Source: Catenulispora sp. MAP5-51 (GTDB lineage Bacteria > Actinomycetota > Actinomycetes > Streptomycetales > Catenulisporaceae). From it: 64,000 nucleotides of DNA. The notes below the pieces were generated by a model. The model was not told the DNA's origin, made no database searches, and worked only from the letters and a program-made list of their open reading frames with translations. Location: NCBI RefSeq assembly GCF_041261205.1, contig NZ_JBGCCH010000002.1, positions 186,001 through 250,000 on the forward strand, written 5' to 3'. Shown here piece after piece: positions 42,713-54,966 of the stretch. The position numbers were made by a program, and so were the translations under genes. How positions within the stretch are numbered: position 1 is the first letter of the stretch; each line of letters begins with the position of its first letter.

Positions 42713-43654
42713 ATGGATGCAGCGACTCAGCGCGCGATGGCCGGATTCGGGGCGGCCAGTCCCGACGGACCGGCGGGGCTGGCGGTACGGGGGTACCTCG
42801 CCGAGCAGTCACGCGCCTTCCTGACGCACAGCGCGCTGCCGGTGCAGCAGCCGGCCGCGGTCCGGCTGCGCGCGGCCTGCCTGCGGGTGGGCACGGCGCT
42901 GGCGGCGTGCCGGGAGTTGGTGGACGCGGCCTGGGCCGACGAGCTCGGCCGGGAACTGCGCGGCACCGCGCAGATCCTGGGCGCCGAGCGGGACTCCGAC
43001 GCGGTGCGGCCCCGGCTGCTGACCCCGCTGGACCGGTGGATCGCCGAGGGCCGCTACCCCGACGGCGGCGCGGCCCGCACCCGCACCCTGCTGACCCGGA
43101 TGCTCGACCGGGAGCGCTCGGCGGCGCACGGCCAGGCCACCGCGGCGCTGGTCGGCCCGGCCTTCCACGCGCTGGCCGACCGGATGGCCACGCTGGCCCG
43201 GGACGTGCCGCTGACCCCGGCCGCCGACCGGCCGTGCCGGCAGGTGCTCCCGGAGATGGCCGAGGGCGCCTGCGAGGAGTTCGCGAGCCGGGCCCGGGAG
43301 CTGCCCGAGCCGCTGGCCGCCGAGGACGCCGCGGGCGACGCCGCCTGGCTGGCCGCCGAGGACGCCGTCCAGGCCGCCCTGCACACCGTCGAGCTGTGCC
43401 GCCCCGCCGGTACGCTGATCGCCGGCGAGGATCCCGCGGACCTGCTGGACCGGCTCGCGGCCACCGCCGAGTCGCTGGCCGAGCAGCGCGACGCGGTCCT
43501 GGCCGCGGCCTGCGTCCATCGGGCGGCCGACACACCGCGCATCGCGGCCACGACCGGATATGTACTGGGAAGACTGCACGAGGAACAACGCCTGGCGGTG
43601 ATCCGGGCCCGGAGCACCGCGCCGCTGGCGGTACCAGAGAGGTCCGCGCACTGA
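42713..43654 (+). CDS. CHAD-domain protein, degenerate
   Basis: A 313-residue all-helical protein of the CHAD family that binds polyphosphate, usually through conserved His in RHxxRR-type motifs. Here the first helix reads AVRLRAACLRVGTALAACREL with those His missing. It follows ppk and precedes MutT1, the standard actinobacterial arrangement, so the family call is mostly by position and helical pattern. GC3 is high throughout. It may have lost polyphosphate binding or may bind another polymer. Confidence 0.75.
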   Translation: MDAATQRAMAGFGAASPDGPAGLAVRGYLAEQSRAFLTHSALPVQQPAAVRLRAACLRVGTALAACRELVDAAWADELGRELRGTAQILGAERDSDAVRPRLLTPLDRWIAEGRYPDGGAARTRTLLTRMLDRERSAAHGQATAALVGPAFHALADRMATLARDVPLTPAADRPCRQVLPEMAEGACEEFASRARELPEPLAAEDAAGDAAWLAAEDAVQAALHTVELCRPAGTLIAGEDPADLLDRLAATAESLAEQRDAVLAAACVHRAADTPRIAATTGYVLGRLHEEQRLAVIRARSTAPLAVPERSAH

Positions 43655-44565
43655 TGAACGCCGCCGACGAAGCCGCCGGCCAGACCGCGCCGATCCAGGT
43701 CCGGGCGGCCGGCTGTGTCGTGTGGCGCCCCGGTCCCGCCGGGCCCGAGGTGGCGCTGATCCACCGCCCCCGCTACGACGACTGGTCCTTCCCGAAGGGC
43801 AAGCTCGATCCCGGCGAGGGCTACGTGCAGGCGGCGGTCCGCGAGGTGCGCGAGGAGACCGGCTATCCGGTGGTCCTGGGCCGGCGGCTGCCGACCCAGG
43901 TCTACGACGTCTCCTTCGGCGGCGCGGCGCGGATGAAACGGGTCAAGTACTGGGCCGCGCAGGCCGCGGTGGACTCCGACTTCCAGCCGAACTCCGAGGT
44001 GGACCGGCTGGAGTGGCTCCCGCTGGCCGCCGCGCGCGACCGGCTGACCCGCCAGACCGACCGCGACCTGCTGCTGGCGTTCAGGGCGGCGCCGGTCGAC
44101 ACCGTTCCGGTCCTGCTGCTGCGGCACGCCGAGGCGGTGCCGCGCAAGCGTTGGGACGGCGAGGAGCTGGAGCGGCCGCTGACCGGACGGGGCCGCGACG
44201 ACGCCGAGGCGCTGGTCCCGATGCTGGCGGCGTACGGCCAGGCGGCGCTGACGGCCTCGCCGTTCGCCCGGTGCGTGGCCACGCTGAAGCCGTCCGCGCG
44301 GTCCGCCGGCGCCGCCATGGCCCTGGAGCCCGCGCTCGCCGAGGGCGCCGACCCGGACGCCGGGCGCGCCTGGCTGCGCGAGGCACTCAAGTCCGGACAC
44401 ACGACCATCGCCTGCACCCACCGGCCGGTCCTGCCCGAACTGCTCGCCGAGAGCCCACTCGGCCAGGCCGTGCACTCCGGCCGCCGGGCCCTGGCGCCGG
44501 CCGAGGCCTGGGTGCTGCACGCCCGCGACGGCCACGTCGTGGCGATCGATCGGCTGAAGCTGTGA
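43654..44565 (+). CDS. MutT1-like Nudix hydrolase fused to histidine phosphatase
   Basis: A 303-residue two-domain protein. The N-terminal Nudix box GKLDPGEGYVQAAVREVREETGYP (about residues 49-72, metal-binding Glu in REVREE) is preceded by WSFPKGK. The C-terminal SixA-like domain has PVLLLRHAEAVPRKRW and CTHRPVLPEL. Mycobacterial MutT1 with this architecture converts 8-oxo-GTP and diadenosine polyphosphates. The start overlaps the CHAD stop by TGATG. Confidence 0.93.
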   Translation: MNAADEAAGQTAPIQVRAAGCVVWRPGPAGPEVALIHRPRYDDWSFPKGKLDPGEGYVQAAVREVREETGYPVVLGRRLPTQVYDVSFGGAARMKRVKYWAAQAAVDSDFQPNSEVDRLEWLPLAAARDRLTRQTDRDLLLAFRAAPVDTVPVLLLRHAEAVPRKRWDGEELERPLTGRGRDDAEALVPMLAAYGQAALTASPFARCVATLKPSARSAGAAMALEPALAEGADPDAGRAWLREALKSGHTTIACTHRPVLPELLAESPLGQAVHSGRRALAPAEAWVLHARDGHVVAIDRLKL

Positions 44566-44774: not shown

Positions 44775-44836
44775 CTCCCTAGCTTCGACGAAGACAACGC
44801 ATGCAATGACTTCCGATGATTCGAAGGGACTTCCCG

Positions 44837-46027
44837 GTGAAGATCCACGCTGGTTTCAATGGGCGCAGTGCCGCGGTCGGCGCCGGAGTTCTGGCTCTGG
44901 CCATGGCCGGCCTGACGGCCTGTGGTTCTGACAACAACTCGTCGAGCTCGGGCGGTTCCTCGTCCACCACCTCGGCGGCCGGGGGCGGCGCCACCTCGGC
45001 GTCCGGTTCGTCGTCCTCGACGGCCTCCGGTGCCGCCGGCGGCATCACCTGCGCCAACGGCACGCTCTCCGGCCAGGGCTCCACCGCTCAGAACACCGCG
45101 ATCGTGAAGTTCATCAAGGACTTCCAGACGCAGTGCGGCAGCGGCACCAACATCAACTACAACGGCACCGGCTCCGGCCCGGGCGTCACCGCGTTCATCC
45201 AGAAGCAGGCCGACTGGGCCGGCTCGGACTACGCGCTGAACTCCACCCAGCAGCCGCAGGCCGACGCCCGCTGCAGCGGCGGCAAGGCGCTGTCCGTGGG
45301 CACCGTCCCCGGCGCCATCGCCGTCATGTACAACGTGCCGGGCGTGACCAAGCTCAACCTGTCGGCCTCGAACCTGGGCAAGATCTACAACGGCAAGATC
45401 ACCAAGTGGAACGACCCGGCGATCGCCGCCGACAACGCCGGCGTGACCCTGCCGGACCTGGCGATCCAGACCTTCCACCGGTCGGACGCCTCGGGCACCT
45501 CGTACAACTTCTCGAACTACCTGAACAAGACCGCCCCGAGCGACTTCCCGACCGCGGCCAACAAGCAGTGGCCGGGCACCGGCGGCCAGTCCGCGCAGGG
45601 TTCGAAGGGCGTCGCCCAGGCCGTGAAGACCACCTCCGGCGCGATCGGCTACGCCGAGGTCTCCTACGCGACCTCGAACAGCCTGAGCACCGCCTCGATC
45701 GGCAACGCCGCCGGCAAGTTCGTGCCGCTGACCATCCCGAACGCCGCGAACTTCATCGACAAGGCGAAGATCGACACCACCGGCGGGAACTACCTGTTCA
45801 ACTTCGACTACACCTACTCGGCCGACGACGCCTACCCGGCCGTGCTGGTGACCTACGAGATCGTCTGCTCCTCGGGCAACGACTCGGCGAAGCTGCCGCT
45901 GCTGAAGAACTTCCTGTCCTACACCGCCAGCAGCGGCGCCCAGTCGCAGCTGGAGGGCCTCGGCTACGTGGCGCTGTCCTCGGACCAGCAGTCCAAGGTC
46001 CAGGCGATCTACGCTGGTCTGAGCTAA
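44837..46027 (+). CDS. pstS: Phosphate-binding lipoprotein PstS
   Basis: A 396-residue periplasmic-side phosphate receptor anchored by a lipid. Signal peptide and lipobox LTACG (Cys29), then a Ser/Gly/Thr linker. Phosphate-binding loops GSTAQN, GTGSGPGV, DWAGSDYAL and HRSDASGTSYNF are visible. GTG at 44837-44839 is chosen because AAGGGA lies at good distance; a frame from 44816 would add seven residues. Upstream is the best PHO box in the window. A strong hairpin follows before pstCA. Confidence 0.95.
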   Translation: MKIHAGFNGRSAAVGAGVLALAMAGLTACGSDNNSSSSGGSSSTTSAAGGGATSASGSSSSTASGAAGGITCANGTLSGQGSTAQNTAIVKFIKDFQTQCGSGTNINYNGTGSGPGVTAFIQKQADWAGSDYALNSTQQPQADARCSGGKALSVGTVPGAIAVMYNVPGVTKLNLSASNLGKIYNGKITKWNDPAIAADNAGVTLPDLAIQTFHRSDASGTSYNFSNYLNKTAPSDFPTAANKQWPGTGGQSAQGSKGVAQAVKTTSGAIGYAEVSYATSNSLSTASIGNAAGKFVPLTIPNAANFIDKAKIDTTGGNYLFNFDYTYSADDAYPAVLVTYEIVCSSGNDSAKLPLLKNFLSYTASSGAQSQLEGLGYVALSSDQQSKVQAIYAGLS

Positions 46028-46099: not shown

Positions 46100-46229
46100 G
46101 TCGGTGCCGGAACCGGCCTCCCGAGCCGTCCCGGCTTGTCCGTTTTGGTCTAACGGAATCGAAACCCGCAGTGAACGCATCCCCAACGGGCCCAGCGACT
46201 GGGCGCCCGAGCCACGAGGCAGGACCCGA

Positions 46230-48287
46230 ATGAGCGGCATAACGCCGACCGCCACCCGGCCCACCCCGCGCCCCGGCGACTCCGGCACCGGAGTCCTCGA
46301 CTCCGGCACCCGCCGGGGCGACGCGGTCTTCTCCGGCGCGGTCCGCGGCGCCGCCTTCTTCCTGCTGATCCTGATGGCGGCGATCGCCACCTTCCTGGTC
46401 TACCGCGCGGTCGGCGCGCTGCGCGCGAACACGGCCAACGTGCTGACCTACACCGGTCAGTGGGCGCCGGACGACAGCCCGCCGAAGTTCGGCATCGGCG
46501 CCGCGGCCTGGGGCACCCTGGTCACCTCCACGCTCGCGATCATCATGGCCGCCCCGGTGGCCATCGGCGTGGCGCTGTTCATCACCCAGTACGCCCCGCG
46601 CAAGCTGGCCCAGGTGCTCGGCTACATCGTCGACCTGCTCGCCGCGGTCCCCTCGATCGTCTACGGCCTGTGGGGCATCCTGTTCCTGGTTCCGCACATG
46701 CAGGGTCCCTCCCAGTTCATCTCGAACATCCTGGGCTGGATCCCGATGTTCTCCTCCGGCGTCTTCGGCCGCTCGGTGTTCACCGCGGCCGTGATCCTGG
46801 CCATCATGGTCCTGCCGATCATCGCCGCCATCTCCCGCGAGATCTTCCTGCAGACCCCGCGCGAGCAGGTCGAGGCCTCCTACGCGCTGGGCTCCACCAA
46901 GTGGGAGATGATCAAGCTGGCGGTGCTGCCCTACGGCCGCAGCGGCGTGGGCTCGGCGATCGTCCTGGGCTTCGGCCGCGCGCTCGGCGAGACCATCGCG
47001 GTCGCGATGGTGCTGTCCATCAGCTACAACTTCGTCACCAAGTGGCTGCAGCCCGGCGGCAACACCATCGCCGCCAACATCGCCCTGCAGTTCGGCAACG
47101 CGCTGCAGACCGGCCAGGGCGCCCTGATCGCCTCCGGTCTGGTGCTGTTCGTGGTGACCTTCCTGGTGAACCTGCTGGCCAGGCGGATCACGGCGCGCGC
47201 GGGCGTGCCCAGGGACGAGCGCTGGAGTGTGTTCTCGGCATTCCAGGGTCGTCGCCCCAAGGTCGTCGACGACGCCGCCTACGACGTCACCGCCGCGGAC
47301 GTGCCGGACCGGCGGGGAGCCTTCGAGGCGAAGGACGTGCCCGGCGACGTCGCCGCGGACGACAGAGCGGGCAGGGCCCGCCCGCGCGGCGGGGCGCACG
47401 GGACCGTCGGCGGCGGCGTCCTGGTCTCCCCCTCGCTGTCGCGCCGGATCCGCAGCGGCGGCGCCGGCGTGGTCACGACCCTGGCGTTCGTGCTCGCGGT
47501 GCTGCCGCTGATGTCGATCATGTGGCTGGTGGTCTCGCGCGGCGTCCACGCGCTGAACGTCGAGTTCCTGACCCACTCGCTGCGCAACATCTCCGAGGAC
47601 CAGGTCGGCGGCGGCGTGTACCACGCGATCCTGGGCACCCTGGAGATGGCGGGCCTGGCCGCGCTGATGGCCGTCCCGATCGGCATCCTGGTCGCGGTGT
47701 ACCTGGTGGAGTACGGCAAGGGCATGCTGGCCAAGGCGGTGACGTTCTTCGTCGACGTGATGATGGGCCTGCCCTCGATCGTGGCCGGCCTGTTCATCCT
47801 GTCGCTGTGGATCATCACACTGGGCCAGTACCAGAACGGCTTCGCCGGAGCGCTGGCACTGATGATCCTGATGCTGCCGATCGTGATCCGCTCCACCGAG
47901 GAGATGCTCAAGCTGGTGCCGGACTCGCTGCGCGAGGCGTCCTACGCCCTGGGCGTGCCCAAGTGGCGCACCATCACCAAGATCGTGATCCCGACCGCGC
48001 TGCCGGGCATCATCACCGGGGTGATGCTGGGCGTGGCCCGCGTGATGGGCGAGACGGCGCCGATCCTGCTGGTGGTCAGCTACATCCAGAGCATCAATCC
48101 GAACCCGTTCAGCGGCACCCTGGGGCAGGCGACCCTGCCGACGGTCATCTTCAACACCTACACCTCGTCGGAGCACGCCTCCAACGACCGCACGTGGTCC
48201 GCCGCGCTACTGCTGATCATCATCATCATGCTGCTGAACATCATCGCCAGGCTCATCGCCTGGTGGAAGACGCCCGGTCGGGCCTAG
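46230..48287 (+). CDS. pstCA: PstC-PstA fused phosphate ABC permease
   Basis: One 685-residue polypeptide carries both permease subunits. Residues about 35-320 form PstC with six helices and its EAA loop REQVEASYALGSTKWEM. A charged linker runs over about residues 325-405. Residues about 410-685 form PstA with its own six helices and the loop LREASYALGVPKWRTI. There is no stop codon or frameshift between them; because PstC has an even number of helices, the second half would keep its native topology. Internal GTG codons at 47301 and 47337 might allow separate PstA starts. ATG 46230 has AGGA upstream. It is normally two genes in Streptomyces. Confidence 0.9.
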   Translation: MSGITPTATRPTPRPGDSGTGVLDSGTRRGDAVFSGAVRGAAFFLLILMAAIATFLVYRAVGALRANTANVLTYTGQWAPDDSPPKFGIGAAAWGTLVTSTLAIIMAAPVAIGVALFITQYAPRKLAQVLGYIVDLLAAVPSIVYGLWGILFLVPHMQGPSQFISNILGWIPMFSSGVFGRSVFTAAVILAIMVLPIIAAISREIFLQTPREQVEASYALGSTKWEMIKLAVLPYGRSGVGSAIVLGFGRALGETIAVAMVLSISYNFVTKWLQPGGNTIAANIALQFGNALQTGQGALIASGLVLFVVTFLVNLLARRITARAGVPRDERWSVFSAFQGRRPKVVDDAAYDVTAADVPDRRGAFEAKDVPGDVAADDRAGRARPRGGAHGTVGGGVLVSPSLSRRIRSGGAGVVTTLAFVLAVLPLMSIMWLVVSRGVHALNVEFLTHSLRNISEDQVGGGVYHAILGTLEMAGLAALMAVPIGILVAVYLVEYGKGMLAKAVTFFVDVMMGLPSIVAGLFILSLWIITLGQYQNGFAGALALMILMLPIVIRSTEEMLKLVPDSLREASYALGVPKWRTITKIVIPTALPGIITGVMLGVARVMGETAPILLVVSYIQSINPNPFSGTLGQATLPTVIFNTYTSSEHASNDRTWSAALLLIIIIMLLNIIARLIAWWKTPGRA

Positions 48288-48299
48288 GAGATATCGAAA

Positions 48300-49076
48300 A
48301 TGGCGAAGCGCATTGACGTCGCGGGCCTGTCGGCCTACTACGGCCCGACCCGCGCCATCGAGGACATCTCGATGACCGTCGAGCCGCGCACCGTGACGGC
48401 CTTCATCGGGCCCTCCGGCTGCGGCAAGTCCACCTTCCTGCGCACCCTGAACCGCATGCACGAGGTCATCCCCGGCGCGCGGGTCGAGGGCAAGGTCACC
48501 CTGGACGACGTGGACCTGTACGGGGCCCAGGTCGACCCGGTGGCCGTGCGCCGGCACGTCGGCATGGTGTTCCAGCGCCCGAACCCGTTCCCGACGATGA
48601 GCATCTACGAGAACGTCGCCGCGGGCCTGCGCCTGGCGGGCGTGAAGAAGAGCGGCGAACTGGACGACATCGTCGAGAAGTCGCTGAAGGGCGCGAACCT
48701 CTGGAAGGAGGTCGAGAACCGGCTGAAGAAGCCGGGCGCCGGCCTGTCCGGCGGCCAGCAGCAGCGCCTGTGCATCGCCCGCGCCATCGCGGTCAGCCCC
48801 GACGTGCTCCTGATGGACGAGCCCTGCTCGGCCCTGGACCCGATCTCCACCACGGCGATCGAGGACCTGATCTCGCAGCTGAAGTCGGAGTACACGATCG
48901 TGATCGTGACCCACAACATGCAGCAGGCGGCCCGTGTCTCGGACCGCACCGCGTTCTTCAACATCAGCGGCACCGGCACCCCCGGCCGCCTGATCGAGAT
49001 CGACGAGACCTCCCGCATCTTCGCCAACCCGACGGAGAAGGCGACGGAGGACTACATCACCGGCCGGTTCGGCTGA
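48300..49076 (+). CDS. pstB: Phosphate ABC transporter ATPase PstB
   Basis: A 258-residue cytosolic ATPase energising phosphate import. Walker [11 protein letters not shown]-loop FQRPNPFP, signature LSGGQQQRL, Walker [12 protein letters not shown] and H-loop THNMQ are all intact. The PstB-specific [16 protein letters not shown] segment is present. TAGGAGA precedes ATG 48300, 12 nt after the pstCA stop, so the genes are one operon. A strong hairpin terminator follows. Confidence 0.97.
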
Positions 49077-52871: not shown

Positions 52872-52980
52872 GAAGCCTGAGAAGACTCTTCCTCGACGAG
52901 GGCAACCTTTCCCGGATCTCGTTGGTCCCACGATTTGAGTCACGATATCCGTGACTATTCATGACTCTTGGGGAGAGTTC

Positions 52981-54966
52981 ATGCCAAAGTCCTCCGGTCG
53001 GCGGTCTCTCGCACTGTCCGCGATCCTCTCGACCTCGCTCATTCCGGCCCTGGGGTTCGTCGCGCCCGCCGCCCACGCCGTCAACTCCGGCCCCGCCGAC
53101 AGCGCCCTGACGATCAGCGACGGGACCCAGCGGATGCTGGTCGACGGCCAGCCGCTGACCTTCCCGACCACGGTCACCGACGCCACGTGGTCCCCCAACG
53201 GCAGCCGGGTCGCCTTCGTGGACGGAAACGGGGACCTGGTATCCGCGCTCCCGGACGGCAGCCAGATGCGGGTCCTGGCGCACGGCGGGCCGGGGATCGC
53301 CATCTCCAGCCCGACCTGGAGCGGCGACGGCACCGGCGTCGCGTTCGCCGAGACGGTCCGGGGCGTCACCGGCCCCATCAAGGTCGCCAAGGCCGACGGC
53401 TACGGCACCAACGCCTCCGGCGGTGGCGACGGCTCGGTAATCGCCGACGTCCCGAACATGAACGACGGCGCGGCCTACGCCTCGCCCGACGCGGTCTACA
53501 CGCCGGACGGGACCAGCCCGTCGATGAACATCGTCCCGGACTACGTCTTCCAGAAGACGCCCGCCGGCAGCTCCGCGCCGCAGATCTGGTCGGTCCGGAA
53601 CTACGCGCGCCAGGCGCAGCCCTACAAGATCGCCGACGGGACGCAGCCCACGGTCAGCCCGGACGGCAAGACCGTCGCCTTCATCACCGGTTCCTGGCAG
53701 CTCGCGGTCGTCGACATCAGCGACCCGTTCCAGCCGTCGCCGCCGAAGGTGCTCACCCACCTGGACGGCCTCGCGCTGTCCCACCCGACGTTCTCCCCGG
53801 ACGGAAGCAAGATCGCCTTCGAGACGTCGATCGTCAAGAACGGGGGCACCCCGGTACCGAACGACGTCGAGGCGATCCCGGCGACCGGCGGCACCCCCGC
53901 CGTGGCCTCGCAGCACCCTGGCGTCCCGGCCTACCGCCCGACGGCCGTCACGCACGTGACCCGCCTGGCCGGCGCCGACCGCATCGGCACCGCGATCGCG
54001 GTCTCGAAGGCCGCCTACCCCGACGCCACCCTGAGCACCGCCAGGCCGACCAGCCTGGTCCTGGCCCGCTCCGACCAGTACGCCGACGCCCTGGCCGGCA
54101 GCGTGCTCGCCAAGAACGGGCCGCTCCTGCTCACTCCCTCGAACGCCCTCGACCCGGCGGTCCGGGACGAGATCGTGCGGGTCCTGGGACCGGCCCACGG
54201 CGGAGCGCCGGTCGTCACCCTGCTCGGCGGCGCCCAGGCCCTCTCGCCAGCCGTCCAGAAGGCGATCACCGACCTCGGCTACGGCGTACGGCGCCTCGGC
54301 GGCGCGGACCGCTTCGCGACAGCCGTCGACATCGCCCGGACCGCCGTCACGAACAACCCGGGCACCCGCACCTTCGTGGTGGCCACCGGCGAGAACTTCG
54401 CCGACGCCCTGTCAGCCAGCGCGACCGGCGACCCCATCGTGCTGACCGACGGCAAGGCGATGCCCCCCGCCACCGCCGCCTTCCTGAAGTCGGTGGCCGC
54501 CCCCACCAGCGCGGGCCCGGCGACCTTCTACGCAGTGGGCGGCCAGGCCAAGACCGCGACCGAGACCTCCGGAGCCACCGGCACAGCCAGAACCGTCGCC
54601 CTGGCCGGCACCGACCGCTTCGAGACCTCCTTCATGGTCGCCCGCGAATTCTTCGGCGCCGCCCCCAACGCCCTCCCCGGCCGCCTCTACCTCGGCGTGG
54701 CCACCGCCTACAACTGGCCCGACTCCCTCGCCGGCGGCGCGGCCATGTCGAACCTCTCCGGCCCCCTCCTCCTGGTGGACCCCCACAAGGGCCTCACCCC
54801 CGAGGAACAACAGTGGGTCTCCGCCAACTCCGGCAGCATCGACAGCGCCCTGATCTTCGGCGGCCCAGCCGCCCTCCCGGACAGCATCGGAACCGAGCTC
54901 GGCGCGACCCTGTCCGGCCCGGCCGGCTACGTCGCCGCGACGGATCCGGGGAGCATTCCGGAGTAG
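52981..54966 (+). CDS. Surface protein with beta-propeller and three cell-wall-binding repeats
   Basis: A 661-residue exported protein. Signal peptide ends near AHA|V. Residues about 40-320 contain PD40/WD-like blades (TWSPNGSRVAFVDGNGDLVS, VSPDGKTVAFITG, FSPDGSKIAFETS). The C-terminal half has three CWB2 (PF04122) modules: RLAGADRIGTAIAVSKAAYP, RRLGGADRFATAVDIART and ALAGTDRFETSFMVAREFF. CWB2 domains bind cell-wall anionic polymers. Function of the propeller is unknown. ATG 52981 follows GGGGAGAG. Confidence 0.9.
   Translation: MPKSSGRRSLALSAILSTSLIPALGFVAPAAHAVNSGPADSALTISDGTQRMLVDGQPLTFPTTVTDATWSPNGSRVAFVDGNGDLVSALPDGSQMRVLAHGGPGIAISSPTWSGDGTGVAFAETVRGVTGPIKVAKADGYGTNASGGGDGSVIADVPNMNDGAAYASPDAVYTPDGTSPSMNIVPDYVFQKTPAGSSAPQIWSVRNYARQAQPYKIADGTQPTVSPDGKTVAFITGSWQLAVVDISDPFQPSPPKVLTHLDGLALSHPTFSPDGSKIAFETSIVKNGGTPVPNDVEAIPATGGTPAVASQHPGVPAYRPTAVTHVTRLAGADRIGTAIAVSKAAYPDATLSTARPTSLVLARSDQYADALAGSVLAKNGPLLLTPSNALDPAVRDEIVRVLGPAHGGAPVVTLLGGAQALSPAVQKAITDLGYGVRRLGGADRFATAVDIARTAVTNNPGTRTFVVATGENFADALSASATGDPIVLTDGKAMPPATAAFLKSVAAPTSAGPATFYAVGGQAKTATETSGATGTARTVALAGTDRFETSFMVAREFFGAAPNALPGRLYLGVATAYNWPDSLAGGAAMSNLSGPLLLVDPHKGLTPEEQQWVSANSGSIDSALIFGGPAALPDSIGTELGATLSGPAGYVAATDPGSIPE

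Follow-up and report, generated by a model that had tools for sequence, protein, structure and literature searches.

A single reading frame for PstC and PstA in a phosphate transport gene cluster of Catenulispora

Gene cluster and domain architecture

The window (the whole stretch of DNA analysed, 64,000 nucleotides of a soil bacterium) carries a gene cluster in the order polyphosphate kinase, CHAD protein, NUDIX and histidine-phosphatase protein, pstS, pstCA and pstB. pstCA (46230–48287, + strand) is a single reading frame whose translation runs for 685 residues to the stop codon. The NCBIfam model TIGR02138 places PstC at residues 32–323 (46323–47198, +; 423 bits against a cut-off of 196) and TIGR00974 places PstA at residues 414–677 (47469–48260, +; 392 bits against a cut-off of 193). 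The initial annotation had proposed an uninterrupted 685-codon frame encoding both subunits, with PstC in residues 1–325 and PstA in residues 410–685; the translation and the two models bear out both the frame and the division into halves. The Pfam domain BPD_transp_1 (PF00528) occurs twice in the one chain, as it does in the four fused relatives scanned. Both equivalog models also score above cut-off in two further genomes of the family (G001, a Catenulispora, and G010, a second genus) and in one member each of the more distant families f63 and f84.

The fused gene is flanked by pstS, encoding the phosphate-binding protein (44816–46027, +; TIGR00975, 249.9 bits against a cut-off of 205), and by pstB, encoding the ATPase (48300–49076, +; TIGR00972, 373.6 bits against a cut-off of 343). 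The same neighbours, pstS upstream and pstB downstream, are found in several relatives, among them members of the f63 and f84 clades. The CHAD-domain protein (42713–43654, +) adjoins the polyphosphate kinase and fits a polyphosphate–phosphate cluster; the NUDIX and histidine-phosphatase domains share one frame (43657–44562, +) between the CHAD gene and pstS. Elsewhere in the window, 52951–54966 (+) encodes a large protein that looks secreted and contains three similar repeats; by eye, these resemble cell-wall-binding repeats. The genome holds two more pst loci with separate pstC and pstA, 41–43% identical to the halves of pstCA, and the fused system is thus one of three. At both of these loci (L112 on contig C4 and L113 on contig C3), a pstS-like match follows pstA; at L112, a pstB-like match lies further on.

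The linker between the halves

The segment joining the two domains (residues 324–405; 47199–47444, +) is charged and mostly predicted to be disordered. From the last PstC helix to the first PstA helix, it measures about 76–100 residues depending on where the cut is made, and residues 320–405 contain 14 K/R and 12 D/E, in agreement with the earlier description of a charged, stop-free linker of about 80 residues. The AlphaFold pLDDT is below 50 at residues 324–373 and 375–399. The linker has no stop in any of the three forward frames. Taken alone, the open frame is weak evidence: when its 86 codons are shuffled, 34% of the resulting sequences are stop-free too, as are 46% of 86-codon stretches drawn at random from the GC-rich window.

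The frame is stop-free in all 10 Catenulispora genomes, that of the window included (residues 1–685 in nine, 1–683 in one), with protein identities of 78–100%, and a linker that is open by chance was set aside as an explanation. In the DNA alignment of these genomes, every gap run in the linker is a multiple of three and the third codon positions are 93–100% G+C. Of seven pairs, which partly overlap, six give a linker dN/dS of 0.35–0.59 and the seventh gives 1.03; for the domains, the values are 0.12–0.57 over seven pairs. From the gaps, the third-position composition and the dN/dS values, the linker therefore behaves like coding sequence in the pstCA frame, under looser constraint than the domains. 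The fusion is real and well conserved, because the two domains share a frame that all 10 genomes keep, with linker gaps in whole codons and a high third-position G+C content.

Distribution of the fused gene

Within the family, 11 of 14 genomes carry the fused gene (the 10 Catenulispora and G010, the lone genome of a second genus) and three have it unfused. Among 147 genomes of the order, the same 11 are fused, with no other single match over both halves among the matches listed (to about 7e-96). All samples were judged only in genomes matching at strict E-value limits, so that weaker fusions may be missed. In the class sample, 38 of 394 genomes matched at 1e-100, and the genome of the window alone was fused without a stop; in four others, a stop separates pstC from pstA within a shared frame, and these were rejected. 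In the phylum sample (18 of 396 matched at 1e-95), the fused genes are that of the window and six from f63.

Family f63 was then covered with 42 genomes. In 21 of them, a single match without a stop extends over both halves, taking in only part of one half in three cases. Another seven carry the two halves in one frame, bringing the count to 28 fused genomes; two of the remainder are cut by a contig end (G885 and G887) and 12 gave no match at the limit. G862, which is among the 28, has a separate pair in addition to the fused gene. In a sample from the class of f63, 29 of 199 genomes matched at 1e-70 and 23 were fused, f63 contributing 21 and genus g388 (family f84) the other two, one of which is a single contig. 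Three other f84 genomes in that sample have separate halves. The fused proteins of f63 and f84 are stop-free PstC–linker–PstA frames from the same phylum; they differ from the window protein in being only 36–40% identical to it, with linkers that cannot be aligned, and do not form one clade with the Catenulispora fusion. In two f63 proteins (L105 and L106), the PstC half contains an additional insert that is hydrophobic and about 40 residues long. A 1038-residue open frame in G874 was considered as a larger fusion and rejected, as by eye it is PstCA plus an upstream stretch resembling the neighbouring gene read out of frame; G1252 spans both halves with four stops and was rejected as well.

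Beyond these clades, a sample around a Thermoanaerobaculum genome (18 of 199 matched at 1e-55) gave no match over both halves. Around a Clostridium genome (239 genomes), none of 11 long frames examined is fused. These 11 Bacillota frames around PstA (nine of 471–839 residues and two of 451) are among the matches listed, a few listed frames of 400–417 residues standing outside the count, and in each of them PstC lies in another frame. An earlier Bacillota sample (0 of 348 genomes matched at 1e-70) is uninformative for that reason. Among plasmids, 180 records match, and no single site in any of them covers more than 80% of the query. Searching genomes for the same fusion, as the initial annotation had suggested, thus located it in a second genus of the family, in f63 and in f84 (g388). 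As the accompanying statement had it, PstC and PstA are separate proteins in most bacteria, Escherichia coli and Actinospica included. The fusion is less singular than was implied, since other clades have it too. No report of a PstC–PstA fusion was found in the titles and abstract openings of the papers listed in literature searches, in which subscription journals are largely missing.

Origin of the fusion

A tree of 64 rows (29 of them fused) was built from the two domains with the linker left out. Three changes of fusion state are needed on it, and forcing all 29 fused rows into one clade is rejected (p = 2e-27). The Catenulispora group and Actinospica sit among unfused genes; grouping G010 with Actinospica (p = 0.33) or Catenulispora with Actinospica (p = 0.19) is not rejected, and Catenulispora and G010 may go back to one fusion event or to two. 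The tree program warns that long branches meet near the root, and the three changes could in principle be a mix of gains and losses there. Among distant relatives, PstC and PstA have apparently been joined more than once.

In the three genomes of the genus that includes Actinospica (g3, same family), pstC and pstA are separate, and stop and start overlap by 1 nt (TGATG). Over the 10 unfused junctions examined, the overlap is 1 nt in three and 4 nt in six, with a gap of 52 nt in one; an overlap of the two genes is thus already present in most unfused relatives examined (nine of 10 junctions). As pstA is offset from the pstC frame by the same shift in nine of the 10, joining the genes required a frame change and not the loss of a stop alone. 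The fusion added roughly 75 residues that are absent from Actinospica. In the Catenulispora family, a frame change at an overlap junction, together with new linker codons, would have joined pstC to pstA. Genes with short overlaps are reported to be translationally coupled and to encode subunits of complexes more often than expected (PMC10666635, PMC6728339). It is plausible that the fusion is a further step after a translationally coupled overlap. PstA at three Micromonosporaceae loci (L062, L063 and L065) carries a long hydrophobic N-terminal extension that by eye looks like extra helices and is absent from Catenulispora and Actinospica.

Predicted fold and topology

A hydropathy scan gives eight candidate segments in the PstC half (five strong) and seven in the PstA half (six strong), which does not fix the helix count. 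The loop joining the halves contains 18 K/R. By the positive-inside rule, loops rich in K/R are cytoplasmic, and the loop between the halves is therefore placed on the cytoplasmic side. The initial annotation had argued that an even number of helices in PstC keeps PstA in its usual topology; the count itself is left unsettled by hydropathy, but the usual topology is supported by the 18 K/R of the loop and by the structural matches to E. coli PstSCAB and to FbpBC.

The AlphaFold model, calculated from an alignment of 27 fused proteins, is only fair (mean pLDDT 68.9, pTM 0.69; 56–69 over the five models), with the linker mostly unstructured. In Foldseek, it matches two chains, labelled A and B, of E. 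coli PstSCAB (9k3s, 9k3x and 9k3y), the permease subunits PstC and PstA, with TM scores of 0.75–0.84 by target. The longest match is chain A of 9j4r, the FbpBC transporter of Thermus thermophilus, over 594 columns (TM 0.69 by target and 0.51 by query, rmsd 8.7, for a model that is only fair); by the title of the entry, this chain is FbpB. Each half of PstCA keeps a conserved cytoplasmic loop. In the PstC half, it spans residues 215–240 (46872–46949, +), with E215, A219, G221, P234, R237 and G239 invariant in the 27 fused proteins, and is presumably the EAA loop that meets the ATPase. In the PstA half, it spans residues 569–593 (47934–48008, +), with E569, A573, G575, P588, P592 and G593 invariant in the same set; we take this to be the second EAA loop. 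With both loops kept, each half could meet one PstB.

Translation start and alternative readings

The ATG at 46230 is preceded by the Shine–Dalgarno-like sequence GAGGCAGGA (46216–46224, +), with a duplex energy of −7.8 kcal/mol. This start and its Shine–Dalgarno sequence (−7.8 kcal/mol) are conserved in all 10 genus genomes, and the Shine–Dalgarno sequences of pstB lie at −7.3 to −7.9 kcal/mol for comparison. In G010, no start codon stands where the ATG lies in Catenulispora. Scoring of duplexes found no internal start that is common to all 10 genus genomes and pairs like 46230.

The frame might nevertheless also deliver PstA alone, from an internal start, so that fused and free PstA would coexist. 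The initial annotation had singled out GTG 47301 and GTG 47337 as internal candidates, and both exist. A GTG aligned to 47301 is found in eight of the 10 genus genomes, that of the window included (+0.7 to −5.9 kcal/mol), but its pairing in the window (+0.3 kcal/mol) amounts to no Shine–Dalgarno sequence. GTG 47337 pairs at −5.9 kcal/mol, which is within the background of the gene (5% quantile −6.3), and three of the 10 have a GTG there or at the next codon, each at −5.9 kcal/mol; both are poor as starts. The codon aligned by eye to the PstA start of Actinospica is GTC in the window (47418–47420, +) and not a start codon; of the 10 genomes, two have ATG at this position, five have GTG and three have GTC, the best pairing being −6.6 kcal/mol (in G006). 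Actinomycete starts can exist despite weak Shine–Dalgarno scores. Since ATG or GTG is kept at the ancestral position in seven of the 10, a second PstA product may be made in some Catenulispora species. As an account of the locus, free PstA beside the fused chain is quite unlikely, no site shared by all 10 pairing as 46230 or the pstB starts do. A related reading has the chain made whole and then cut in the linker after insertion, leaving an ordinary two-chain heterodimer as the working permease. The linker is long, charged, mostly predicted to be disordered and faster evolving than the domains, and proteases could cut such a segment; however, the alignment of fused proteins has, by eye only, no motif common to all linkers, and all 10 genus genomes preserve the frame of the linker. 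We regard cleavage as unlikely.

Two further readings concern the gene itself. The genome of the window is a draft of 87 contigs, in which an assembly or sequencing error might mask a frame change or the linker stop that the initial annotation had allowed for. The agreement of all 10 genus genomes refutes this; one of them, G001, is a single contig of 10,467,782 bases, the printed size of the finished, Sanger-only genome of Catenulispora acidiphila (PMC3035231), and an error has practically no chance of explaining the frame. The presence of two additional, separate pstC/pstA pairs would allow pstCA to be a redundant copy in decay, but those pairs are merely 41–43% identical to it, pstS and pstB are retained next to the fused gene in relatives, the domains evolve at a dN/dS of 0.12–0.57 (seven pairs) and the linker frame is maintained. 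Decay was set aside, and it is highly improbable.

Discussion

Very probably, the frame has taken the place of two overlapping genes and encodes a one-chain PstCA permease that works, together with PstS and two PstB, as the ordinary PstC–PstA heterodimer does. The earlier proposal of a one-chain heterodimer is thus the best reading of the sequence and the predicted model. The two halves would each fold as the separate subunits do and would pair inside one uncut chain, of about 70 kDa, across the flexible cytoplasmic linker, each offering its own conserved cytoplasmic loop to one PstB. PstS would bring phosphate from outside. The transporter would then consist of PstS, PstCA and two PstB, encoded by three genes and not four, with putative high-affinity phosphate transport as its function.

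PstCA shares with the PstSCAB of E. coli and of actinomycete pst clusters the PstC and PstA equivalogs and the pstS and pstB neighbours, and with the E. coli chains the predicted fold. It differs in that the permease there is two chains, whereas here one frame encodes both halves, joined through a linker of about 80 residues. One-chain permeases of this kind have precedent. FbpB, SfuB and ThiP are natural one-chain, two-domain permeases; FbpB of 9j4r differs from PstCA in its substrate, in sequence (18% identity) and in length (490 residues in the structure against 685). The PstA homologue MG411 of Mycoplasma genitalium, about 650 residues long and in a cluster not known to contain pstC, would presumably be a PstC–PstA fusion. 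It belongs to a distant phylum, and any fusion there would therefore be a separate one. A published account of phosphate import in M. genitalium gives the group as MG_410, MG_411 and MG_412, with no pstC named there (PMC7012841). We take two separate permease chains to be a habit of the Pst family and not a functional requirement. A more far-reaching view, which we consider doubtful, has two parts. The join between PstC and PstA would have been favoured on at least three independent occasions in Actinomycetota, each time going beyond genes that overlap and are coupled in translation; and the charged linker, retained and quickly evolving, would do more than tether the halves, serving for example as a cytoplasmic docking or regulatory segment that faces PstB or PhoU.

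Pst is the textbook four-part importer and phosphate sensor. If the reading is true, a natural one-chain permease would show that the Pst system can do without PstC and PstA as free subunits, with Actinospica providing matched unfused sisters for comparison. A change in PstC:PstA stoichiometry is a candidate effect that the fusion may have. Structural and single-molecule studies would also gain a ready single-chain construct, with the ratio of the halves fixed at 1:1 and each half open to mutation independently of the other. The locus would offer a testable case of a route that starts with two genes, passes through an overlap and ends in one gene, and that has apparently been followed several times.
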